A stretch of 64,000 bases of DNA from Thermus igniterrae ATCC 700962 (GTDB taxonomy: Bacteria; Deinococcota; Deinococci; Deinococcales; Thermaceae). The notes under the pieces were generated by a model. It saw only the letters and a program-made list of their open reading frames with translations, was not told the origin of the DNA and did no database searches. Numbering within the stretch: position 1 is the stretch's first letter; each line of letters begins with the position of its first letter. Made by a program: the position numbers and the translations under genes. The stretch lies in contig NZ_AQWU01000070.1 in NCBI RefSeq assembly GCF_000376265.1, forward strand, positions 1-64,000. The letters run 5' to 3'. This document shows, piece after piece, positions 12,923 through 38,709 of the stretch.

Positions 12923-14020
12923 TCAGTGCCAGAGGAGGAGGAGGCCTAAGAGGAGAAAGCCCAAGCCCGGCCAGGGGTAGGGCCTCCCTAGGAGGCGGTG
13001 CAGGAGGATCACGCCCAGCAGGGCCAGGAGGGGGTGGGGAAGGAGCCTTCCTCCCAGGGCCAAGTGGAGGAGGCCCAGGAGGGCGTTGAGGTCGTAAAGC
13101 CCCACCAGGAGGCGCACCCCCCGGGGCACCTCCTGGCGGCGCAGGAGGTAGAGGCCGGCCAGGAAGGCCAGGGCCACCAGGCCCCACCCCAGGAGGCGGT
13201 GCAGGGAAGGTGCCTCCAGGAGGAGGGTAGGGAGGCCTTGCCAGGTGTATCCCAAGGCGGTGAGGAGGACCAGGAGGAGGCCGAAGCCCATCTGTGTCCA
13301 GCCGATGACCCGCGCCGGGACAGGGGGGCGCAGGAGGGCTAAGCTTCCGTAAAGGGCAAGGAGGCCGAGGGCCAGGGGTACGCTCCAGGGAAGGAGGCCT
13401 AGGAAACCGAGGAGGAGAGCGGCCAAGAAGGCGCTCCAGAGGGCCAGGAAGGCAGGGTGGGTCTTGGGCTTTAGCCCCCGGGCCCGGAGCACCTGCGTGC
13501 GGGCGTAGTAAAGGGCGGCCACGTCGCGGAGGGCCAGGGCCAGGAAGCTTCCCAGGGCCACTTCCGCATCAAGCCCCCCGGCCAGAATCCCAGCGGGGGC
13601 CAAGGAGGCCATGAAGAGGGCGGCGGCCAGCTCGGCGAAAAGCTCCCGGGCCCGGCCGTGGGCATCGGCCCAGGCCACGTAAGCCCCCAAAGGAAGAGCG
13701 GCCAGCAGGGGTAAAAAGAAAGGCCCCCAAGCGGTGAGGGCAGCCAGGAGAAGGCCCACTAGCGCAAGGAGGGCGTAGGCCCCGCCCACCAGAAGGGCCA
13801 GGTCCGTGCGGGGGTAGCGCTTTCCTTTCCGCAGGTCCTGGTAGGCGAGTTTTAAGGGATGCCGAGCCAAGAAGCCACAGAGGCCAAACAGGAATAGCCC
13901 CAGGGTGTGGGGTCCTGGGGTGAGGAGGAGGGCGAGGAGGAGGGGTTCTAGGGTGAAGCCCCATCCCCCGTGCTCCGTGGGGAGGGCCACCGTTTTGAGA
14001 GGAACGCTTGGGGTGCGCAT
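12923..14020 (-). CDS. YwiC-like multi-spanning membrane protein
   Basis: The 365 residues open with PTEHGGWGFTLEPLLLALLL, the hallmark of the YwiC-like family, and contain about 10-12 TM helices and the basic segment LKLAYQDLRKGKRYPRTD. In Bacillus subtilis the family member lies in the narK-fnr-ywiC neighbourhood, so its place beside nar genes is meaningful, though its function is unknown. The frame is open to 14131, but ATG 14020 has a GGAGGC ribosome site and begins the family homology. Last gene of a four-gene operon preceded by an FNR-like box. Confidence 0.8.
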   Translation of the reverse strand: MRTPSVPLKTVALPTEHGGWGFTLEPLLLALLLTPGPHTLGLFLFGLCGFLARHPLKLAYQDLRKGKRYPRTDLALLVGGAYALLALVGLLLAALTAWGPFFLPLLAALPLGAYVAWADAHGRARELFAELAAALFMASLAPAGILAGGLDAEVALGSFLALALRDVAALYYARTQVLRARGLKPKTHPAFLALWSAFLAALLLGFLGLLPWSVPLALGLLALYGSLALLRPPVPARVIGWTQMGFGLLLVLLTALGYTWQGLPTLLLEAPSLHRLLGWGLVALAFLAGLYLLRRQEVPRGVRLLVGLYDLNALLGLLHLALGGRLLPHPLLALLGVILLHRLLGRPYPWPGLGFLLLGLLLLWH

Positions 14021-14063
14021 GCCTGCCTCCAGGGTAGGGGAAGGACTGGGGGGCAAAGGTCCT

Positions 14064-14441
14064 TCAGACCCAAAGCACCTCCAGCATGAGGAGGATGTAA
14101 AGAAGACCTGCCAGGGTGGAAACTCCGGCAAAGACCCCCCAAATCGTGGGGCTCCAAGCCAGCCCCCAGGCCAGGGCCATGCCCAAAAGCCCCAGGTTGG
14201 CCAACACCACTTGTATTAAGGCTACCCCCGCCCTGCGGAAGACCACCCCCCGGAACCGGGGTAGGGCGTGGTAGGAGACCCCGTAGATCATGAGGCCCAC
14301 AAAGCCTATAAGTTGCAGGTGGGCGTGGGCAGGCCGCCAGGTGTAGGGCAGGACCCCGAGGCCCATGAGCAGGCCCAGGAGATTGGCGAAGCCAAACCAG
14401 ACTAAGGCGCTAGTGAGGGCGAGGCGGCTTGCGAGGATCAT
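14064..14441 (-). CDS. Short heme-copper-oxidase subunit I-like membrane protein
   Basis: The 125 residues form about four TM helices. The segment PAHAHLQLIGFVGLMIYGVSYHALP (about 37-61) resembles a cbb3-type subunit I helix and carries His39, His41 and His58, possible heme or metal ligands. Full subunit I proteins have twelve helices, so this is a truncated or stand-alone member. The same spaced motif recurs in the proteins at 29629 and 30962. The ATG overlaps the cupin stop (ATGA). A role in binding heme, O2 or NO is inference. Confidence 0.65.
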   Translation of the reverse strand: MILASRLALTSALVWFGFANLLGLLMGLGVLPYTWRPAHAHLQLIGFVGLMIYGVSYHALPRFRGVVFRRAGVALIQVVLANLGLLGMALAWGLAWSPTIWGVFAGVSTLAGLLYILLMLEVLWV

Positions 14442-14734
14442 GGCCTGGGGGTGATGATGCCAAGCACCAAGAAGGACCTTTCCCCTGCCTTGGCCCCGTG
14501 GGCTTCCCCTGGCTCGGCGGCCAGGAGGGTGCCTGGCGTGGCCCTAACCTCGCGGTCCCCAGCCCAGAGGACCCCCTGTCCTTGCAGACAGAGCAGGTGG
14601 ACCCGTGGCTCCCCTTGGCCTTGCACTTCCTGGCCTTGTTGGAGGCTGAAAAGGACGAGGCGCACCTCAGGATGGTCGGCGAGGAGTTGCACCTGCCGCG
14701 TGTTTCCGTAGCGGGCTTGTTCCAGTAGGTTCAT
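14438..14734 (-). CDS. Small cupin-fold protein
   Basis: The 98 residues have the beta-rich pattern of a single cupin domain (GQEVQGQGEPRVHLLCLQGQ, then TPGTLLAAEPGEAHGAKAG). Only part of the usual His metal site is visible (His in RVHLL and EAHG). It lies between the RIC-like gene and the oxidase-like gene, both overlapped by 4 nt. Probably a small sensor or metal-binding protein; the ligand is unknown. Confidence 0.65.
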   Translation of the reverse strand: MNLLEQARYGNTRQVQLLADHPEVRLVLFSLQQGQEVQGQGEPRVHLLCLQGQGVLWAGDREVRATPGTLLAAEPGEAHGAKAGERSFLVLGIITPRP

Positions 14735-14928
14735 TTCTGTGCCTCCAGGAAGCCGAGAAGGGCCTGCAGGACCTGTGCCGGTTCCTGACCTGCCTGCCGG
14801 GCGGCCTCTTTCAGGGGTTCGGCTCCCCCGCAGCAGGTGTCCAGGCCAAAGCTACTGAGTAGCTTTACCGCTTCCGGATAGTGCCGCAGGATTTCGTTCA
14901 CGGGTGTGTCCAGGGTGATCTCTTCCAC
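14731..14928 (-). CDS. RIC/ScdA N-terminal (DUF542) protein
   Basis: The 65 residues match the N-terminal domain of the di-iron repair proteins RIC/ScdA/YtfE: TPVNEILRHYPEAVKLLSSFGLDTCCGG, with the paired Cys32-Cys33 followed by GG. The hemerythrin-like di-iron domain that normally follows is missing, so this is a stand-alone version, as occurs in several nitrate or NO-stress clusters. GTG 14928 is the first codon of a four-gene operon (RIC-N, cupin, oxidase-like, YwiC-like). The FNR-like box is centred 43.5 nt upstream, the usual activator position. Confidence 0.8.
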   Translation of the reverse strand: MEEITLDTPVNEILRHYPEAVKLLSSFGLDTCCGGAEPLKEAARQAGQEPAQVLQALLGFLEAQK

Positions 14929-15728: not shown

Positions 15729-15742
15729 TTGACCCTGGTCAT
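15729..15742. promoter_or_regulatory. FNR/DNR-like box 2 (between redoxin-like gene and ferredoxin)
   Basis: TTGACCCTGGTCAT followed by GG lies in the 118-nt divergent gap. Its centre is 54.5 nt from the ferredoxin ATG at 15790 and 64.5 nt from ATG 15671. It could serve either or both genes. Same sequence family as the boxes at 14965, 28551 and 30913. Confidence 0.6.
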
Positions 15743-15789
15743 GGACAACCAAGAGCCCCCGGAGGCAGGCTGGACCTTGGAGGTGGACC

Positions 15790-16059
15790 ATGCCCCACGT
15801 GATCTGTGAACCCTGCATTGGCGTCAAGGACCGTTCCTGCCAGGAGGTTTGCCCCGTGGAGTGCATCTACGATGCTGGCGACCAGCTTTACATACATCCC
15901 GACGAGTGCATTGACTGCGGGGCCTGCGTGCCCGCCTGTCCGGTGAATGCCATCTTCCCCGAAGAGGACGTTCCCGAGCTGTGGCGGATTTACATAGAAA
16001 AGAACAGGGAATGGGCAAGGACCCTGCCCAACGTGCATACCCTAGGGGAAAAAGGCTAG
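15790..16059 (+). CDS. Seven-iron ferredoxin (3Fe-4S / 4Fe-4S)
   Basis: The 89 residues closely resemble the well-studied Thermus seven-iron ferredoxin: MPHVICEPCIGVKD at the start, CQEVCPVEC and CIDCGACVPACP. Nine cysteines are present (6, 9, 17, 21, 25, 40, 43, 46, 50), enough for one [3Fe-4S] and one [4Fe-4S] cluster. It carries electrons in the cytoplasm. The position between nar regulators and accessory genes, behind an FNR-like box, suggests use under low oxygen. Confidence 0.92.
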   Translation: MPHVICEPCIGVKDRSCQEVCPVECIYDAGDQLYIHPDECIDCGACVPACPVNAIFPEEDVPELWRIYIEKNREWARTLPNVHTLGEKG

Positions 16060-28550: not shown

Positions 28551-28564
28551 TTGACCCAGGTCAT
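28551..28564. promoter_or_regulatory. FNR/DNR-like box 3 (DUF2249 operon)
   Basis: TTGACCCAGGTCAT followed by GG starts directly after the nar terminator. It is centred 46.5 nt before ATG 28604, a normal activator distance if the leader is only a few nucleotides. Confidence 0.65.
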
Positions 28565-28603
28565 GGCGAAAGGGGAACTGGCCCGGGGAAACTGAGGGCG
28601 CTA

Positions 28604-29628: not shown

Positions 29629-30066
29629 ATGGGCTTTTGGCACTTCCTCTTCATCCGGGCGGCTCTTTTATACCTTATCTACACCGCCCTCTTGGGCACG
29701 CTTTTCTACTTCTTCCCAGGGCTGGTGGGGCCCTTCAGGCCCTCCCACGTGCACGCCGGGCTGGTGGGCTTCTTCCTGCAGATGGTCATGGGGGTGGCCT
29801 ACTGGATGATGCCGAGGCCGGGAGGCTTGAGGCAGGATGCCCTCGAGGCCCTCACCTTCCTTCTCCTCAATGCCGGCCTCCTCCTGAGGCTTTTCCTGGA
29901 GCCCCTCCACCTCCTGGGCCAGGAGGGGCTGCGCCCTTGGCTCGGGCTTTCCGGGGGGCTCCAGCTTCTCGCCACCTTGGTCTTCGCCTTGGCCATGCGT
30001 AGGCGGGTGGTCACGGGGGATATGCTGAGGAAAATGCGCGAGGAGCGGGAAAGGAGAGGAGGATGA
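29629..30066 (+). CDS. Four-helix heme-copper-oxidase subunit I-like membrane protein
   Basis: The 145 residues form four TM helices. The second carries PSHVHAGLVGFFLQMVMGVAYWMMP (about 38-62) with His40 and His42, spaced exactly like the motif in the protein at 14064. It resembles one quarter of a NorB/cbb3 subunit I. The C-terminus is basic and cytoplasmic (RKMREERERRGG). It overlaps the next gene (ATGA). Heme binding is plausible but not shown. Confidence 0.65.
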   Translation: MGFWHFLFIRAALLYLIYTALLGTLFYFFPGLVGPFRPSHVHAGLVGFFLQMVMGVAYWMMPRPGGLRQDALEALTFLLLNAGLLLRLFLEPLHLLGQEGLRPWLGLSGGLQLLATLVFALAMRRRVVTGDMLRKMREERERRGG

Positions 30067-30905
30067 AGCCGGTCGTCGTCTGGGAGGAGGCCCTCGTTCT
30101 GGACCTACCGCCCCTGCCGGAGGAGGTTTTCGCTGACCTCTTGGCCTTCGGGGGGCTGGGGGAGGAGGCCAGACGGGCCATGCGCCTGGATGCGGAAAGG
30201 CTTCTGGAGGGGGCCGCAGCCTTTGTGGCCCGGGTCTACGACCACCTGAGCCGCCATCCCGGCACCGCCCGCGCCCTGGGCTGGGAGGGGAGGGTGCCCG
30301 AGGAGGAGCTTTACCTGCGTAGGGCTTTTTTCTCCGCCTGGCTGGCCCGCACCTTCGGGGTGGATACCTCCCCCGAGTTTGCCCGGGAGGTGTATAGGGC
30401 GGGCCTCTGGCATGGGGGGCTTGGGCCCAAGGCGGCCCTCATCCCCCCGGAGTACGTGGGCCTGGCCTTCGCCGAGGTGGGGCGGTACGTGGCGGAGCGG
30501 GTGGGGGACGTGGGGCCTTGGCTGGTTTATCTGGCTGCCCAGGTGGAGGTGATGCGCAAGGGCTTTGACGCCGCCCTGGCCCTGAAGGAAGGGAGGGCAC
30601 GTGTGAGCTTCCAGGCGCTGGGGCTGGCCTACCCCGCCCTGCCCAAGCCCGTGGCCCTGCAGGCAGGAAGCGTGGGGGAGGCGCTTGGCAAGGTCTTCGC
30701 CGCCCACCCCGCCCTGCGGGACCTGGCCCTCGAGGCCCTCCCCGCCGAGGAGGAGGTGGGGCTTTGGCTTTCCCCCAAGACCCTCTACTCCCTGCGCCCC
30801 CGCTGGGCGGTGCTTCGCAATGGCCGGGATGTGCGGTATCTGGAGGGGCTGGCCACTCCGTTGGGAGAGGGGGACCTCCTCACCCTCCTACCCCCGGGGC
30901 GGTGA
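30063..30905 (+). CDS. Protoglobin-like heme domain fused to a MoaD/ThiS-like beta-grasp domain
   Basis: The 280 residues fall into two parts. Residues about 15-175 resemble a protoglobin or globin-sensor domain: AAFVARVYDHLSRHPGTARA (51-70), a helix LRRAFFSAWLARTFG (85-99), and GLWHGGLG with His117 as likely proximal heme ligand before IPPEYVGLAF. Residues about 180-280 resemble MoaD/ThiS: VGEALGKVFAAHPALRDL and LRNGRDVRYLEGLATPLGEG, ending LLTLLPPGR. The usual Gly-Gly end for sulfur transfer is replaced by Gly-Arg, so it is probably not a sulfur carrier. It lies in an operon of DUF2249 and oxidase-like genes. Gas sensing is inferred. Confidence 0.68.
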   Translation: MKPVVVWEEALVLDLPPLPEEVFADLLAFGGLGEEARRAMRLDAERLLEGAAAFVARVYDHLSRHPGTARALGWEGRVPEEELYLRRAFFSAWLARTFGVDTSPEFAREVYRAGLWHGGLGPKAALIPPEYVGLAFAEVGRYVAERVGDVGPWLVYLAAQVEVMRKGFDAALALKEGRARVSFQALGLAYPALPKPVALQAGSVGEALGKVFAAHPALRDLALEALPAEEEVGLWLSPKTLYSLRPRWAVLRNGRDVRYLEGLATPLGEGDLLTLLPPGR

Positions 30906-30912
30906 GGGGGTC

Positions 30913-30926
30913 ATGACCTGGGTCAT
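30913..30926. promoter_or_regulatory. FNR/DNR-like box 4
   Basis: ATGACCTGGGTCAT is a perfect palindrome (ATGACC-TG-GGTCAT) and is followed by GG as in the other three boxes. It is centred 42.5 nt before ATG 30962, so a leaderless transcript would place it at about -41.5 to -42.5. A weak -10 (AGATTT, 30950-30955) fits. Confidence 0.68.
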
Positions 30927-30961
30927 GGCCCATTCCGAGCGCCGAACTCAGATTTAGGACG

Positions 30962-32113
30962 ATGCTGGCGAGCGTCCACACCCGGGTTGTTCCCCTCGCC
31001 CTTCCCGCAGGGTTCATCTTCCTGGGGGAGGGGTTCTTCCTCTTCTCGGGCCTGGTTCTGGCCCTTCACCCCGAGGTCCTCTCCCTTCCCCGGCACCCTC
31101 TAGGTCTCGCCGGGGCTCACCTCTTCCTCTTGGGCTTCGGGGTGGGGGTGCTCCTCGGGGCTTTGCACCAGCTCCTGCCCGTGGTCCTCGAGGTGCCCCT
31201 CTACCGCCTGGGGTGGGGGTACCCGGTGATGGCCCTCTGGGCCCTGGGGGTAGCCCTCCTGGCCTTGGGCTTTGCCCAGGTCCCAGTTTTGGTGCCGGTG
31301 GGGGGAAGCCTGGCCCTTTTGGCCCTCCTCTTCTTCGCCTACAATGCTTACCGCACCTTTCGCCTGGCCCCCCGGTGGAACCGGGTGGCCACCGCCTTGG
31401 CCTGGGTGGGCTTCTACGTGGTCCTCACCCCCCTTTTGGGCCTTGTGCAGGCCCTTTCTCTGCGTTACGGCTTTTACGACCCGGAAAGGCTCACTTGGCA
31501 CCTCCTCGCTGGCTTGGGCGGGGTCTTCCTCCTCTCCATCCTGGGGGTGGGATACAAGCTTCTTTCCATGTTCACCCTCACCCACGAGGTGGACGAGCGG
31601 GTCCTGGGGCTTTTCCTCTGGGTGGCCAACCTGGGGCTTTTGGGCGTGGCATTGGGAGAACGGCTGGGGTACCTCCTTCTCCTCCTGGCCTACGCCCTGG
31701 CCCTCTACGACACCTGGCGCATTCTCAAAAACCGCATGAAAAAATCCCTGGACATCGGGGTGCGCCACTATCTCGGGGGGCTTTGCTTCCTGGGCCTCTC
31801 CTTGGTCGCCCTGCCCTTTAGCCCCGTGCAGGCCGCTTTGTGGTTTACCCTGGGCTTTGTGGGCCTGGTGGTCACCGGGATGCTCTATAAGATCTTTCCC
31901 TTTTTGGTCTGGACCCACCGCTACGCCCCTAAAGCGGGTAAGGAGCGGGTTCCCCTTCTCAAAGACATGCTCCCCGAGGGGGCGGGGTACTTGGCAGGGA
32001 TGCTTCTGGCGGCGGGGGCGCTCCTCTTCCCCCTGTTTCCCTGGGCGGGGTGGGTCTACTTCCTGGGGATTTTCCCCCACCTTTACGCCCTTTGGGAGGT
32101 GATGCGGCGATGA
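30962..32113 (+). CDS. Multi-spanning NnrS/oxidase-like membrane protein
   Basis: The 383 residues form about 11-12 TM helices. One helix has [23 protein letters not shown] (51-73; His53 and His69), matching the spacing of the short proteins at 14064 and 29629. A later helix repeats the pattern ([20 protein letters not shown] with His180). This layout recalls NnrS and heme-copper oxidase subunit I. NnrS proteins relate to NO tolerance in denitrifiers; equivalence here is inference. FNR-like box 4 lies directly upstream. The stop overlaps the next start (ATGA). Confidence 0.6.
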
Positions 32114-32412
32114 ACCCTTTGGAGGAACAGGCGTGGAACCTTTTGCGGACGGTTTATGATCCGGAGCTGGGCTTGGACGTGGTGAACCTGGGGCTCATCT
32201 ATGTGCTCAAGGTGGAGCCCCCTAGGGTCCACGTGCGCATGACCCTTACCACCCCGGGCTGCCCCCTGCACGACAGCATGGGGGAGGCGGTACGCCAAGC
32301 CCTTTCCCGCCTTCCGGGGATAGAGGAGGTGGCGGTGGAGCTGACCTTTGACCCCCCCTGGACCCCGGCCCGGCTCTCCCCGGAGGCCCGGCGGCTCCTG
32401 GGCGGGGTCTGA
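32110..32412 (+). CDS. MIP18/DUF59 family Fe-S assembly protein (SufT/PaaD-like)
   Basis: The 100 residues match the MIP18 (DUF59) family: [21 protein letters not shown] (about 12-32) and the reactive-Cys motif [11 protein letters not shown]. Members help mature Fe-S proteins. ATG 32110 overlaps the preceding stop and is preferred over the longer upstream frame. Its position at the end of the accessory cluster suggests support or repair of Fe-S clusters under nitrate or NO stress. Confidence 0.85.
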
Positions 32413-32492: not shown

Positions 32493-35400
32493 TTAGCCCT
32501 CTTCGGCCTCTTCCATGATCCTCAAAAAAGCCGCCACCACCTCGGGGTCCAGCTGTTTTCCCGCTTGCTCCTGGAGGTAGGCCAAGGCTTTTTCCTTGGG
32601 CCAGGCCTGGCGGTAGGGGCGGTCGGAGGTCAGGGCGTCATAGACGTCCACCACGGCGAAGATGCGGGCCGCCAGGGGGATGGCCTCCCCCTTCAGCCCC
32701 CGGGGATAGCCGGAGCCGTCCCAGCGCTCATGGTGGGCGTAGGGAATTTCCAGGGCCTTCTTCAGATAGGGGATGCCGGAGAGCCACTCGTAGGCGTAGA
32801 CGGGGTGCTTCTTCATGACGGCCCACTCCTCCTCCGTGAGGGGGCCGGGCTTGAGGAGGATGGCGTCGGGGATGCCCAGCTTGCCCACGTCGTGGAGGAT
32901 GGCCCCCCGCCTCATGTCGTCCAGGTCCTCCTCGGGTACCCCCAGGGCCCGGGCCAGCCTCAGGGTGAGCTCGGTGACGCGCTCCGTGTGGCCGGCGGTC
33001 TCCTGGTCCCGCAGTTCCACCGCCTTGGCCCAGCCCCAAAGCGTGAGGTCGTAGGCGGCCTCCAGCTCCCGCTGGCTTTTGAGGAGCTCCTGGAAGGTGA
33101 GGGCGTTGTCCAGGGCGATGGCTCCCTGGGTGGCCAGGGCCTCCAGGAACTCCTCGTCCTCTGGGCTCAGGTTCCAGGGGCCTCGGGTGAAGACGGCCAG
33201 CACCCCGAGGAGCTGGCCCTTGGCGAAGAGGGGATAGGCCCTTTCCACCACCAGCCCTTCCTTCAGGGTGAACTCCGGGGAGGTGCCGGGGTCTTGGGTG
33301 AGGTCGGGTACGTGCACCACCTCCCCCAGGAGGGCGGCCCTGCCCACGTGCCCCTGGCCCAGGGGGATGTGGTGGGGCAGGGCTTTTTTGGGGGAGAGGA
33401 ACCCCTTGGCGTGCTTTAGCTCCAGGACCCGGTCCTTTGAGCGGTAGAGGAAGAGGGCGGCGGCGTCCAGGGGCAGGCGCATCACCTGGTCCAGAAAGAC
33501 CTCCAAGGAGGGGGCAAGCTCCAGGGAGTGGACGATGGCCAGGTCCACGGCCCGCAGGGCCTCTAGGTATTCCAGGCGCTGGCTCAGCTTTTTCCTCAGA
33601 CTGGCCCGGCGGACGGCGTTGCCGATGGTCTCGGCTATCAGCTCCGCCCGCCCCACCTCCTTGGGGGTGGGTACCCGGGGAGGGGGCCAGGCCAGGGTGA
33701 GGACCCCAACAGCCTCCTTCCCCGCCATGAGGGGAAGCGCTGCCCCACTCCAACCCTCGGGGATGAAGGGCTTGGCCCCGGCCCGAACCCGGGGGTCTTC
33801 CCGGAGGTTGGGGCTGACCATGACCTGTCCCTGGAAGGCCTGTTGCACCAGGCTGGCCTCATCCAGGCTGGGGGGTGGAGGGAGGTCTTGGACCCAGCCC
33901 CGGCTGGCCACGGCCTCCAGGCGGCCGGTTTCCGGGTCGTAGAGGAGGAGGCTTCCCGCCGGGGCCTCGAGGGCCTCGAGGGCGGCTTCCAAGGCGTATT
34001 CCATCATCTCCTTCAGCTCCTCGCTCCGGCGCAGGGCCACGCTCACCCGGGCGAAGGCCTCCAGGGCCAGCTCCCGCTCCCGTGCCTCGGTGACGTCCAG
34101 GGCTATCCCCAAAACGGCCGGCCTTCCCCCCACCTCCACCCGGGCGGCGGCGTAGTCCAGCCAGCGCACCTCCCCGTCCTTGGTCAGGATGCGGAAGGGG
34201 TAGCGGCTTGGGGGGTTTTCCCCACGGAAGCGGGCCAGGCCCCGCTCCCGCACCGTCTCCCGGTCGGCGGGATGGACGAAGTCCCAGATGGGGCGGCTCT
34301 GGAGTTCCTCCAGGGTGTAGCCGGTGACCCTCAGGACCTCCTCGTTGGCGAAGATGAGGCGCTCCTCCTGCCACAGGAGGATGAAGGCCGGGGCGGTCTG
34401 GGCCAGGGTGCGGAAGAGGGCCTCGGACTCCCTGAGGGCCTGCTCCCTGGCCTTCTCCTCGGTGATGTCCCGTTTGATGGCGATGAAGTGTTGGATTTCG
34501 CCCTCTTCCAGGACGGGGGTGATGGTCATGTACTCCGTGTAGAGGGTGCCGTCCTTGCGGCGGTTGACGATCTCCCCCTCCCAGACCTTCCCGGAGAGAA
34601 TGGTCTCCCACATCTGCTGGTAGAACTCCTGGGGGTGCTTGCCCGACTTCAGGATGCGGGGGTTCTGGCCCAGGGCCTCCTCCGAAGCGTAGCCCGTGAG
34701 GCGGGTAAAGGCCTGGTTCACCCACGCAATGCGCCCGTCGCGGTCGGTGAGCACCACGGCCTCGTGGGCGGCCCTCAGGGCCTCCTCCAGGAGCCTCCGG
34801 GTGGCCTCGGCCTTGAGCTTTTCCGTCACGTCCAAAGCCGCCACCAGCACCGCCGGCCGCCTCCCGTATTCCAGGGTGTGGGAGTGGATTTCCACCTGGA
34901 TTTCCCGGCCGTCCTTGAGGCGGTGGGTCCAGGGGCCGGACTGCTGCAGGGGGGGGCGGGGCTGTTTCAGCTCTTCCAGGAGGCGGAGCCTCTCCCGCTC
35001 CGGGCGGATTTCCAGGATGGTCATGGTGAGGAACTCCGCCCGGCTGTAGCCATACTTGGCCACCGCCGCCTCGTTCACCTCCAGGAAGCGGAGGGTCTCC
35101 CGGTCGTAGACCCACATGGGCAGGGGGTGGGCCTGGAAGAGGAGGCGGAAGCGCTCCTCAGCCTGCACCTCCTGGGTGACATCCATGCCGTACCCGGTCA
35201 GGAGGCGGCTTTGCGGGTCGTAGACCAGGCTGTCCTGGAGCCAGACCCACTGCTCCTTCCTTCCGTGCCAGAAGCGGTAGCGGAGCTGGACCACTTCCCC
35301 GGGTCTGGCCACTGCCTGGCGGCAGACCTCTTGGGCGGCCTCCCGGTCTTCGGGGTGGACCTTTTCGTAAAAGCTCGCGGGCTCGGCCAGCGCCTCTTTG

Positions 35401-36131
35401 GGGTAGCCCAGGATGCGCTCCGCCTGGGGAGAGGCGTAGAGAAGGGGCAGGAAGGCGGGATCGGCCCCCTCGGGAACCAGGGCCTGGAAGACGCGGCCGG
35501 GTAGCGCTTCCAAAAGGCCCTGGAGCCGGGCACGCTCCCTTTCCAGCTCGCTTTCGTCGCGCACATTCAGCACGATGCCCCGCACCGCCGGGTCCTGGAG
35601 GAGGTTCCGGCCCCAGACCCGCACGAACCGGGTCTCTCCCCTGGCGTCCAGGATGCGGAAGCTGTACTCCCGGGTGGACCCGGGGTAGCGGAGAAGGTCC
35701 TCCAGGACGGCCTCGGCGTAGGTGCGGTCCTCGGGGTGGACGAAGTCCAGGGCGTGCAGGGGGGTGCGGGTGTAGCCCAGGGGGTCATAGCCCAGCACCT
35801 GGGCCACGTTGGGGGAGACGTAGGTGAGCACACCCTTTGGGTCCACCACGTAGATGAGCTCCCGCCCCTCTTCCACCAGGGCGCGGAAGCGGCGCTCGGA
35901 GGCCTTTAGGCCTTCCTCTTCCCTGCGCCTTTGGGCCTCCAGGGCCAGGGCCAGGAAGTAGACCAGGAGGCCGGAGAGCAGGACGAAGGTGAGGCCCTTT
36001 CCCGTCTGCCAGCGGGTGAGGGTCTGGGCCTCGGGGAAGAGCTGGAGAAAAAGCTGGTCGCTCCCCAGGATCCACACCAGGGCGAAGAGGGCATAGGCCA
36101 GGGTGAGTTTCCAGGGGTTGCTGAGGCGCAC
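32493..36131 (-). CDS. Membrane multi-PAS/GAF sensor with HD-GYP cyclic-di-GMP phosphodiesterase
   Basis: The 1212 residues begin with two TM helices (KLTLAYALFALVWILGSDQL, then GLTFVLLSGLLVYFLALALE). Five PAS domains follow (about 80-700; the fourth, with LTDRDGRIAWVNQAFTRLTG, resembles redox-sensing PAS), then two GAF domains (about 715-1015) and a complete HD-GYP domain (LHDVGKLGIPDAILLKPG, then HHERWDGSGYPRGLKGE). HD-GYP enzymes break down cyclic di-GMP. GTG 36131 is chosen because a perfect TATAAT lies 9 nt before it; the frame is open to 36188. It directly follows two other c-di-GMP genes. Confidence 0.9.
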   Translation of the reverse strand: MRLSNPWKLTLAYALFALVWILGSDQLFLQLFPEAQTLTRWQTGKGLTFVLLSGLLVYFLALALEAQRRREEEGLKASERRFRALVEEGRELIYVVDPKGVLTYVSPNVAQVLGYDPLGYTRTPLHALDFVHPEDRTYAEAVLEDLLRYPGSTREYSFRILDARGETRFVRVWGRNLLQDPAVRGIVLNVRDESELERERARLQGLLEALPGRVFQALVPEGADPAFLPLLYASPQAERILGYPKEALAEPASFYEKVHPEDREAAQEVCRQAVARPGEVVQLRYRFWHGRKEQWVWLQDSLVYDPQSRLLTGYGMDVTQEVQAEERFRLLFQAHPLPMWVYDRETLRFLEVNEAAVAKYGYSRAEFLTMTILEIRPERERLRLLEELKQPRPPLQQSGPWTHRLKDGREIQVEIHSHTLEYGRRPAVLVAALDVTEKLKAEATRRLLEEALRAAHEAVVLTDRDGRIAWVNQAFTRLTGYASEEALGQNPRILKSGKHPQEFYQQMWETILSGKVWEGEIVNRRKDGTLYTEYMTITPVLEEGEIQHFIAIKRDITEEKAREQALRESEALFRTLAQTAPAFILLWQEERLIFANEEVLRVTGYTLEELQSRPIWDFVHPADRETVRERGLARFRGENPPSRYPFRILTKDGEVRWLDYAAARVEVGGRPAVLGIALDVTEARERELALEAFARVSVALRRSEELKEMMEYALEAALEALEAPAGSLLLYDPETGRLEAVASRGWVQDLPPPPSLDEASLVQQAFQGQVMVSPNLREDPRVRAGAKPFIPEGWSGAALPLMAGKEAVGVLTLAWPPPRVPTPKEVGRAELIAETIGNAVRRASLRKKLSQRLEYLEALRAVDLAIVHSLELAPSLEVFLDQVMRLPLDAAALFLYRSKDRVLELKHAKGFLSPKKALPHHIPLGQGHVGRAALLGEVVHVPDLTQDPGTSPEFTLKEGLVVERAYPLFAKGQLLGVLAVFTRGPWNLSPEDEEFLEALATQGAIALDNALTFQELLKSQRELEAAYDLTLWGWAKAVELRDQETAGHTERVTELTLRLARALGVPEEDLDDMRRGAILHDVGKLGIPDAILLKPGPLTEEEWAVMKKHPVYAYEWLSGIPYLKKALEIPYAHHERWDGSGYPRGLKGEAIPLAARIFAVVDVYDALTSDRPYRQAWPKEKALAYLQEQAGKQLDPEVVAAFLRIMEEAEEG

Positions 36132-36140
36132 GCCGCCTGC

Positions 36141-36146
36141 ATTATA
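36141..36146 (-). promoter_or_regulatory. Consensus -10 of the HD-GYP sensor gene
   Basis: A perfect TATAAT on the minus strand (36146 to 36141) is 9 nt before GTG 36131. It overlaps the last codons of the upstream EAL gene and sets the start of the HD-GYP protein. Confidence 0.6.
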
Positions 36147-38709
36147 AGGCCTGGGGCTTCCCCAAAAGGTATCCCTGGCCCAGGGCAAAGCCCAGGCCCT
36201 TCAGGTGGTGCAAAACGGCCTCCTCCTCAATGCCCTCGGCCACGGCCGTCAAGCGCAGGGCCCGGGCCAGGGCGGCCACCGCGGCCACCACCCGGGCGGC
36301 CGGGCTTTGGGGGTCTGGAGGGCTTCCCAGGGCCTGGGTGAAGGCCTGGCCCAGCTTCAGGCCGTCCACGGGCAGGTGGGCCAGGCGCTCCAGGCTGGAG
36401 TGGCCGCTGCCGAAGTCGTCCAGGAATATCCGTACCCCCAGGCCCCTCAGCACCCCCAGGGCCTTGGTGGCGTCCCGGCCCCTTTCGTCGGGGATGACGC
36501 TGGTCTCCGTGACCTCGAGGACCAGCCCCTCGGGAGGGCACCCCGTCTCCTCCAGCACCTGGGCCACCCCGGCGGGGTAGTGGGGGTCCAGGAGCTCCTG
36601 AGGGCTCACGTTTACGTGCACGGGGAGGCCGTGGCGCTTCTGCTCGGCGCAGGCCCGGCGGAGGACCCAGTGGCCCAGCCTGGCCATGAGCCGGTGCCGC
36701 TCCGCCAGGGGGATGAACTCGGAAGGCGGGGCCAGGCGCCAGCGCAGGAGGGCTTCCAGGGCCACCCTTTCCCCGGTGTGCAGGTCCACGATGGGCTGGT
36801 AGACGAGCCAAAGCCCCTCTTCCCCCTCCAAATCCTCCCGCAACGCCTCCAGGAGGGCCATCTCCCGGCGCAGGCCCTCCTGGAGGTGGGCCTCGTAGAA
36901 GGCCAGGCGGTCCTTTCCCTCCCCCTTGGCCCGGTACAGGGCCAGGTCCGCCCTCTGCAACAGTTCCCCGGGGGAAAGGCCGGTTTCTCCCAGGGCGATG
37001 CCGATGGAGGTGGTGAGGTGGTAGACCCGCTCCCCCACCCCGAGGGGCAGGCGCACCACCTCCAGAAGCCTTTCCGCCACGGCCGCGGCCTCCTCGGGGC
37101 CCCGAAGGCCGGTGAGGAGGACCAGGAACTCGTCCCCTCCCTGGCGGGCCACCAGGTCCCGGGGGCGGAGGGCGGCCCGGAGCCGGGCGGCCACCCCCCT
37201 CAGCACCTCGTCCCCGGCGGCGTGGCCGTCCAGGTCGTTCACCAGCTTGAGGCCGTCCAGGTCCAGGTACAAGACGGCCAGGCCCTGGTTTTCCTCGGCC
37301 AGGGCCTGGGCCAGCTTCTCCAGGAAGAAGAGGCGGTTGGGGAGGCCCGTGAGGGGGTCGTGGTAGGCCAGGTGGTGGAGTTGCCCCTCCAGCTCCAGGC
37401 GCCTGAGGAGGAGGCCCAGCTGGCTGGCGAAGGCCTGGGCCAGCTCCAGGTCCAGCGGGGTGAAGGCGTCTTCCCGCTCAAAGTTGTCCAGGTAGAGGAA
37501 GGCCTTGCGTTCCCCCGCCAGGTAGACGGGTACGGAGAGGATGGCCCTGATCTCCCGCACCCGCCCGGCCTCCTCCATCACCTGGCGGCGCTTTTTGTCC
37601 AGGCGGGCGTTGAAGCGCTGGAGGTCCTTCCAGGTGAAGATCTGGGCCTCCCGGTGGCCGGTGAGGGAAAGGGGCTCCTCGGGGCGCAGGGTCACCTGGC
37701 GCAGGGCCGCAAGGTCATACCCCTTGGCGGCCACGAAGTGGTAGTTCCCGTCCTCCAGGAGCACGGTGACGCTTCCCGCCTGGGCGCTGGGGAGGGTTTC
37801 CAGGGCGGCCTCGAGGATGAGGCCGAAGATGGAGTCCGAGATGCCCTCGGCCATGAGGGTTTCGTAGACCCGAAGGAGGTTCTTGCGGAAGACGCTCCAG
37901 CGGGCTTCCCGGGCCTCTATCTCCCGCCTTTCCGTTACGTCCACCCCCAGGGCCAGCACCTCCAGGGCCTCCCCTCCGGGGCCAGGTACCCCCAGGAGGG
38001 TCCACTCCACCGCCCGATGGCCTTCGCTGGTGTGGAGGTGGGGGCGGCCCGGGTGGGCCAGGGCCTGGGCCAGGGGAAGGGGTGGGGGTTTGGGGAAGGC
38101 CTGCCGGAAGGCGGGGTTGGCGTAGAGGAGGCGGCCTTCGGGGCTGAGGCGGGCCAGGTGGAAGGGGGAGGTCTCCAGAAGCCTTTCCAGCCAGCGCGTC
38201 CGCTCCCAAAGCCCCAGGGTGCGCGCCAGCGCCTCGGCCATCACCCGCAGGAGCTCTTCCTCCTCCGGGGTAAAGACCCGCTCCCGCCGGCAGTCGTCCA
38301 CCCCCAGGAACCCCCAGAGGGTGCCCTCCAAGAAGATGGGGACCACCAGGAGGCTTAGGATGTCCTGGGCTTCCAAAAGCGGCCTTTCCTCCGGGGGAAA
38401 GGTCCTCACCGGGCCGGCCACCGCCCGGTTCTTCAGGAAGTAGGCCATCCAGCGGCCGTAGCCGCCTTCCCGCATGGGCAGGTTCTGCAGGGCGGGGTTT
38501 TCCAGCTGGGGGGTGGTGCCGGGCCCCGCCCACTCGCAAAGCTGGGAGGTGTACCAGGCACCCTTCCGCTTCTCCAGGCGGAAGAGGTAGGCCCGGTCGG
38601 CCCTGAGGGCCTGGCCTATGCCCTCCAGGGCCTTGGGAAGGCCCTGGAGCCCGTCCCTCAGGAGAGGAAGGAGGGTCCGGTAGAGGCTTGCCCCGGGGGC
38701 CAGGTCCAT
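36142..38709 (-). CDS. GAF-PAS-GAF-GGDEF-EAL cyclic-di-GMP enzyme
   Basis: The 855-residue soluble protein has a GAF domain (about 20-165), a PAS domain (about 170-275), a second GAF (about 280-430), a GGDEF domain with intact QGGDEF and an upstream inhibitory RPRD site, and an EAL domain with LEALLRW, EVTETS, LDDFGSGHSS and AEGIEEE. Both catalytic halves look intact, so it could make and degrade c-di-GMP, with direction set by the sensors. ATG 38709 lies 15 nt after TATACT. It converges with no neighbour and is followed directly by the HD-GYP gene. Confidence 0.92.
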   Translation of the reverse strand: MDLAPGASLYRTLLPLLRDGLQGLPKALEGIGQALRADRAYLFRLEKRKGAWYTSQLCEWAGPGTTPQLENPALQNLPMREGGYGRWMAYFLKNRAVAGPVRTFPPEERPLLEAQDILSLLVVPIFLEGTLWGFLGVDDCRRERVFTPEEEELLRVMAEALARTLGLWERTRWLERLLETSPFHLARLSPEGRLLYANPAFRQAFPKPPPLPLAQALAHPGRPHLHTSEGHRAVEWTLLGVPGPGGEALEVLALGVDVTERREIEAREARWSVFRKNLLRVYETLMAEGISDSIFGLILEAALETLPSAQAGSVTVLLEDGNYHFVAAKGYDLAALRQVTLRPEEPLSLTGHREAQIFTWKDLQRFNARLDKKRRQVMEEAGRVREIRAILSVPVYLAGERKAFLYLDNFEREDAFTPLDLELAQAFASQLGLLLRRLELEGQLHHLAYHDPLTGLPNRLFFLEKLAQALAEENQGLAVLYLDLDGLKLVNDLDGHAAGDEVLRGVAARLRAALRPRDLVARQGGDEFLVLLTGLRGPEEAAAVAERLLEVVRLPLGVGERVYHLTTSIGIALGETGLSPGELLQRADLALYRAKGEGKDRLAFYEAHLQEGLRREMALLEALREDLEGEEGLWLVYQPIVDLHTGERVALEALLRWRLAPPSEFIPLAERHRLMARLGHWVLRRACAEQKRHGLPVHVNVSPQELLDPHYPAGVAQVLEETGCPPEGLVLEVTETSVIPDERGRDATKALGVLRGLGVRIFLDDFGSGHSSLERLAHLPVDGLKLGQAFTQALGSPPDPQSPAARVVAAVAALARALRLTAVAEGIEEEAVLHHLKGLGFALGQGYLLGKPQAL

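Follow-up and report, generated by a model that had tools for sequence, protein, structure and literature searches.

The window (the whole 64,000-nucleotide stretch of DNA analyzed) belongs to a Thermus genome of 2.2 Mb, 99.98% complete, and carries in its nitrate cluster a gene for a globin fused to a beta-grasp domain. The gene and its surroundings comprise the following features:

15729-15744: third copy of the palindrome listed next, before an nrcD-like ferredoxin at 15790
28551..28566, + strand: palindrome TTGACCCAGGTCATGG, of NsrR/DnrT type, upstream of drpA (motif from PMC5748679)
28603..28821, + strand: drpA (DUF2249), a published nitrate-signalling protein, with position, size and overlap as in PMC6282519
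28794..29615, + strand: drpB, with DUF1858 and two DUF2249 domains (Pfam; PMC6282519)
29629..30066, + strand: small COX1-like membrane protein of 145 residues, with orthologs; shares 4 bases with the fusion gene
30063..30905, + strand: globin-beta-grasp fusion gene, an open reading frame of 280 residues from ATG to TGA, with known orthologs
30105..30590, + strand: protoglobin domain, about residues 15-176 (PF11563; 19 of 19 orthologs; hhalign against globin-coupled sensors)
30237..30239, + strand: Tyr59 codon, invariant, aligned with the distal B10 Tyr
30411..30413, + strand: His117 codon, the sole invariant His, aligned with the proximal heme His
30594..30902, + strand: MoaD/ThiS/SAMP1-like beta-grasp domain, residues 178-280 (sequence profiles, Foldseek)
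30897..30905, + strand: C-terminal Gly-Arg and stop in place of a VAGG tail, invariant in 31 distinct genes
30913..30928, + strand: second palindrome, ATGACCTGGGTCATGG, directly 3' of the fusion gene
30962..32113, + strand: polytopic membrane protein of 383 residues, the conserved next gene, matched by no curated family
32110..32412, + strand: SufT/MIP18-like iron-sulfur assembly protein (PF01883, DUF59; Pfam)

In Thermus, the genes follow one another as narCGHJIK..., drpA, drpB, the small COX1-like gene, the fusion gene, the 383-residue membrane gene and the SufT-like gene, and the order of the drp genes and the fusion gene is conserved synteny in the genus. The small membrane protein reached 25.7 bits against Pfam COX1, below the cut-off. 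Adjoining the cluster on the minus strand (32493-36188) is a gene for a 1231-residue protein that, by eye, contains an HD-GYP domain along with several stretches of PAS and GAF type. The CTTGACCNNGGTCATGG motif has been shown to bind NsrR-Th, an NO-responsive regulator, and it overlaps the DnrT footprint (PMC5748679). We found three copies of WTGACCNNGGTCATGG in the 2.2-Mb genome, all of them in the window and its nitrate cluster, and none in the reversed control; the window copies are without the leading C of the full CTTGACCNNGGTCATGG motif. The palindromes at drpA and after the fusion gene are kept in nearly all Thermus loci examined.

Because palindromes stand before drpA and right after the fusion gene, the latter would most simply close a drp unit of four genes, drpA-drpB-small COX1-like-globin. 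It shares the transcription-unit position, operator and synteny of the drpAB operon, although that operon has been described as bicistronic, ending at drpB, and as dependent on DnrT, the dependence being published for drpAB with DnrT only (PMC6282519). In strain NAR1, the model for nitrate respiration in Thermus, an insertion sequence lies inside the small COX1-like gene, just after drpB, and would cut the fusion gene off from the drp unit. This may be why drpAB were taken as bicistronic, and why the globin gene was left out of the published drp work. The transposase gene that splits the small COX1-like gene maps to L040:10586-11935 on the T. thermophilus NAR1 megaplasmid. The fusion gene itself is frame-broken on plasmid pTP143 of T. 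parvatiensis (L010 / G022:C2:5284-6119), where the nearby drpB and narI look broken too.

The N-terminal half of the fusion protein matches the Pfam Protoglobin family (PF11563) over residues 22-144 with 38.4 bits, above the cut-off of 25, and so does that of all 19 orthologs searched; in profile-profile comparison (hhalign) it aligned to globin-coupled sensors with 95% probability (E 3.8e-8). His117, the only histidine invariant in the family, falls on the proximal (F8) His of HemAT and AfGcHK, and the invariant Tyr59 aligns with the FYDYL-motif tyrosine at the distal B10 position; a 5-residue insertion precedes IPPEYV. The sequence-only reading, which had proposed a protoglobin with His117 as the candidate proximal ligand and a short insertion at this point, is supported in all three respects. 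RefSeq already names the orthologs "protoglobin domain-containing protein."

The C-terminal half had been read as a MoaD-like beta-grasp domain, and this also held. ThiS matches residues 229-278 with 19.8 bits, just below its cut-off of 22.5, and was recovered in 18 of the 19 orthologs; the NCBIfam SAMP1 (29.1 bits, cut-off 60) and MoaD (16.7, cut-off 49.5) profiles scored below their thresholds. The closest PDB relatives of the protein are the MoaD-related 1v8c of T. thermophilus and SAMP1/MoaD structures. In the AlphaFold model, most of the beta-grasp half has pLDDT 65-83, and Foldseek aligned it with SAMP1 (2l52; E 2e-5, TM 0.78 by target length), with further matches to 4hro, 1v8c and CysO. 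The globin half of the model has pLDDT of about 30-45, too poor for use, and Foldseek placed it only weakly on 5ohe (E 0.08), so that we draw no globin fold from it; pLDDT was 50 when the whole protein was modeled with 8 close orthologs and 54 for the isolated beta-grasp piece. The profile and structure checks proposed earlier for the two halves thus support both domains by profile and the beta-grasp by model, the model of the globin being unusable. Between Thermus species, dN/dS is 0.11 for the globin part and 0.29 for the beta-grasp part, which, together with the invariant Gly-Arg end in 31 distinct genes, argues against a chance open reading frame.

MoaD-type carriers end in PPVAGG, as does the 1v8c-like protein of the same genome, where this stretch precedes DUF1952. 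All 31 distinct fusion genes end instead in ...LPPGR-stop, with no amino acid change, and the C-terminal Gly-Gly of MoaD/ThiS/SAMP carriers is absent from 31 of 31. Four codons are used for the Gly (GGC, GGG, GGT, GGA), four for the Arg (CGC, CGT, CGG, AGG), as well as all three stops. Since the nucleotides drift and the amino acids are fixed, the PPGR end with its missing Gly-Gly is a selected trait. We rejected frameshift or truncation of a former Gly-Gly tail, given the identical tail across genera and the varied codons and stops. The lack of Gly-Gly makes it unlikely, judging from the sequence, that the domain has a canonical sulfur-carrier or conjugation role, as had been suspected from the Gly-Arg end; the conserved PPGR may perhaps matter as a docking element.

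Among 27 Thermus genomes, 20 carry an ortholog of the fusion gene (the broken T. parvatiensis copy included), as do, at about 50-59% identity, 12 of 14 genomes of a second family, f4, in which the carriers belong to two genera. A profile search of 111 genomes across the phylum found the fusion only in these two groups. A scan of GTDB contigs with near-exact peptides, whose reach does not extend to distant fusions, returned Thermus alone, and viral or phage relatives were not found. Two types of locus occur in f4: in the first, the fusion gene follows a gene for a universal stress protein and the small membrane gene known from Thermus; in the second, confined to one genus, it lies between a ferredoxin gene and hemC, with hemC and a Fur-type regulator directly downstream as read from the sequence. 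Meiothermus-like genera have the drp/membrane/SufT module without the fusion gene. Stand-alone protoglobin genes adjoin a gene of glutamate synthase size (1498 residues) in several Meiothermus-like genomes and G064 (L050, L052, L053, L054, L056); in L050 this neighbor is glutamate synthase according to Pfam. The two genes form a conserved pair.

The distribution of the fusion gene follows nirS/norB more closely than nar. It is present in 16 of 16 nirS-bearing Thermus genomes, which as species are not independent of each other, and 12 of the 12 f4 carriers have nirS or norB; in G052, nirS, norB and the fusion gene are all absent. A test of nirS against the fusion gene in f4 (Fisher p = 0.27) has no power, because the gene is nearly universal in this family. 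Within Thermus the gene tracks drpB best (20 of 20), as expected of neighbors. As for nar, one Thermus genome (G005) has lost narGHJI and keeps the drpA-globin-DUF59 block whole, with nirS and norB; seven f4 genomes have the fusion gene without narG (e.g., G064, 98% completeness); and narG and drpAB occur without the fusion gene in Meiothermus-like genera and in G052. The deletion in G005 lies between a narC fragment and narK2 (L098), a natural one that is useful for function tests. Copper nitrite reductase was rejected as the driver of the distribution, since Meiothermus-like genomes have nirK beside drp and no fusion gene. In the window's own genome and in G011, both carriers, no nirS, nirK, norB or nsrR orthologs were found at the cut-offs used. 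The window retains nsrS, nsrT, a COX1-like gene and a YwiC-like gene (12923-14928, minus strand), and with nsrR, norB and nirS unmatched, these genes are apparently what is left of a nitrite/NO respiration cluster that its genome has lost.

We therefore suggest that the fusion protein is probably part of the Thermus response to nitric oxide, and more specifically, with a probability of roughly 0.45, that it works in the cytosol as a heme-based sensor of NO (or O2) within the denitrification regulon and uses its tailless beta-grasp domain for docking. The heme in the globin domain would bind NO (or O2), and the gas-bound state would alter the docking of the beta-grasp domain, in no sulfur-carrier role, on a partner. 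The likeliest partners would be DrpB or the small COX1-like membrane protein of the same unit, or the DnrS/DnrT/NsrR regulators, and the outcome would be to couple the level of NO or oxygen to the nitrogen-oxide response. This reading draws on the domain assignments, the invariant His117, Tyr59 and PPGR, the operon position with its conserved synteny, the NsrR/DnrT-type operator and DnrT dependence of drpAB, the co-occurrence with nirS/norB and the survival of narGHJI loss in G005. Counted against it are the two carriers without nirS, nirK, norB or nsrR, the genomes of a third family (f3) that have nirS without the gene, and the poor model of the globin. The sequence-only reading had placed the gene in an anoxia-linked operon, which the drp unit and its palindrome bear out as one of anoxia and nitrogen oxides, and its prediction of NO/O2 sensing appears plausible.

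The main rival, which we regard as rather unlikely, is a globin that scavenges or converts NO (NO dioxygenase, nitrite or peroxynitrite chemistry), in which the beta-grasp domain is no more than a tether, to either a reductase or the small COX1-like membrane protein. The NO-linked regulon and the nirS/norB co-occurrence would fit such an enzyme, no known output domain is fused or adjacent, and a Methanosarcina protoglobin is reported to act in vitro as a nitrite reductase and a peroxynitrite isomerase (PMC4020757). However, the protein has no reductase domain and no reductase neighbor conserved in all lineages, its distal Tyr and proximal His are the pair seen in sensor-family globins, and the gene is single copy amid the regulatory genes drpAB.

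Signaling to molybdenum-cofactor synthesis or Nar assembly, which had been put forward from the sequence, now looks improbable. The tailless domain would mimic MoaD and block or gate MoaE or MoeB according to the bound gas, an idea favored by the MoaD/SAMP1 likeness in sequence and fold, by the position beside nar in Thermus and by the presence of MoaE in nearly all genomes. MoaE is near-universal regardless of the fusion gene, however, and the idea is weakened because the gene persists without narGHJI or narG and is missing where nar and drpAB are present; moreover, moa genes are not adjacent in the loci examined, and the f4 neighbors described above are neither moa nor nar. A gas-gated ubiquitin-like decoy is likewise a long shot: NO/O2 binding would expose the tailless MoaD/SAMP-like domain, and by occupying a partner of E1-like or MoaE-like type this domain would turn sulfur-carrier-dependent cofactor synthesis or protein modification on and off.

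We give similarly low credence to the carriage or hand-over of heme, or the sensing of heme supply, for the heme-rich denitrification enzymes and COX1-like membrane proteins. The hemC and Fur-type neighborhood and the adjoining small COX1-like gene in Thermus and another genus speak for it, but the former is found in one genus only, and globins of the protoglobin/sensor kind hold heme tightly, as a prosthetic group. Lastly, it is very improbable that the C-terminus is processed, or that Gly279 acts as an unusual single-Gly carrier in a domain still conjugated or thiocarboxylated: the end is as strictly conserved in amino acids as functional carrier tails, but it has no terminal Gly-Gly and only 2 residues after Pro-Pro, versus 4 in MoaD-type tails.

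The protein joins two known kinds of domain in a new pairing. The output domains known from sensor globins are of kinase, cyclase, chemotaxis and similar types. The fusion resembles the globin-coupled sensors (HemAT, AfGcHK, GsGCS) and protoglobins (PF11563) in its proximal His, B10 Tyr, N-terminal globin and second, C-terminal domain; it differs from the sensors in a 5-residue insertion before the G helix, an N-terminal extension of about 20 residues, and in that its C-terminal domain is a ubiquitin-like beta-grasp instead of an MCP, kinase, GGDEF, HD-GYP or STAS domain. Pfam, NCBIfam and Foldseek identify no known transmitter or enzymatic output domain there. With the MoaD/ThiS/SAMP1 carriers, of which the Thermus ThiS-DUF1952 protein 1v8c is the nearest, it shares the hairpin NGRDVRYLEGLATPL...LPP as well as the beta-grasp fold, with 35 residues being 57% identical to the 1v8c-like copy in the same genome, but it ends in PPGR-stop and not PPVAGG, has a globin in front and has no moa or thi neighbors. 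The beta-grasp is likewise a fused module in other prokaryotic Ub-like fusions (Mut7-C RNase, MoaD-MoaE, ThiS-sulfite reductase, MoaD-AOR), but the survey that describes these lists no globin fusion, nor does the word globin appear in it (PMC1779556). Neither a sensor globin with a ubiquitin-like C-terminal domain nor a report of this protein in Thermus was found in the open-licence literature searched, and earlier mention elsewhere is possible.

We know of no NarX/NarL and no FNR in Thermus, and its literature treats the working of the nitrate, oxygen and NO circuit as an open question. A globin in the drp unit may have been overlooked, perhaps owing to the insertion in the model strain NAR1, and as a predicted heme protein it is a concrete candidate for the gas-sensing step still missing in Thermus, and one that can be tested.
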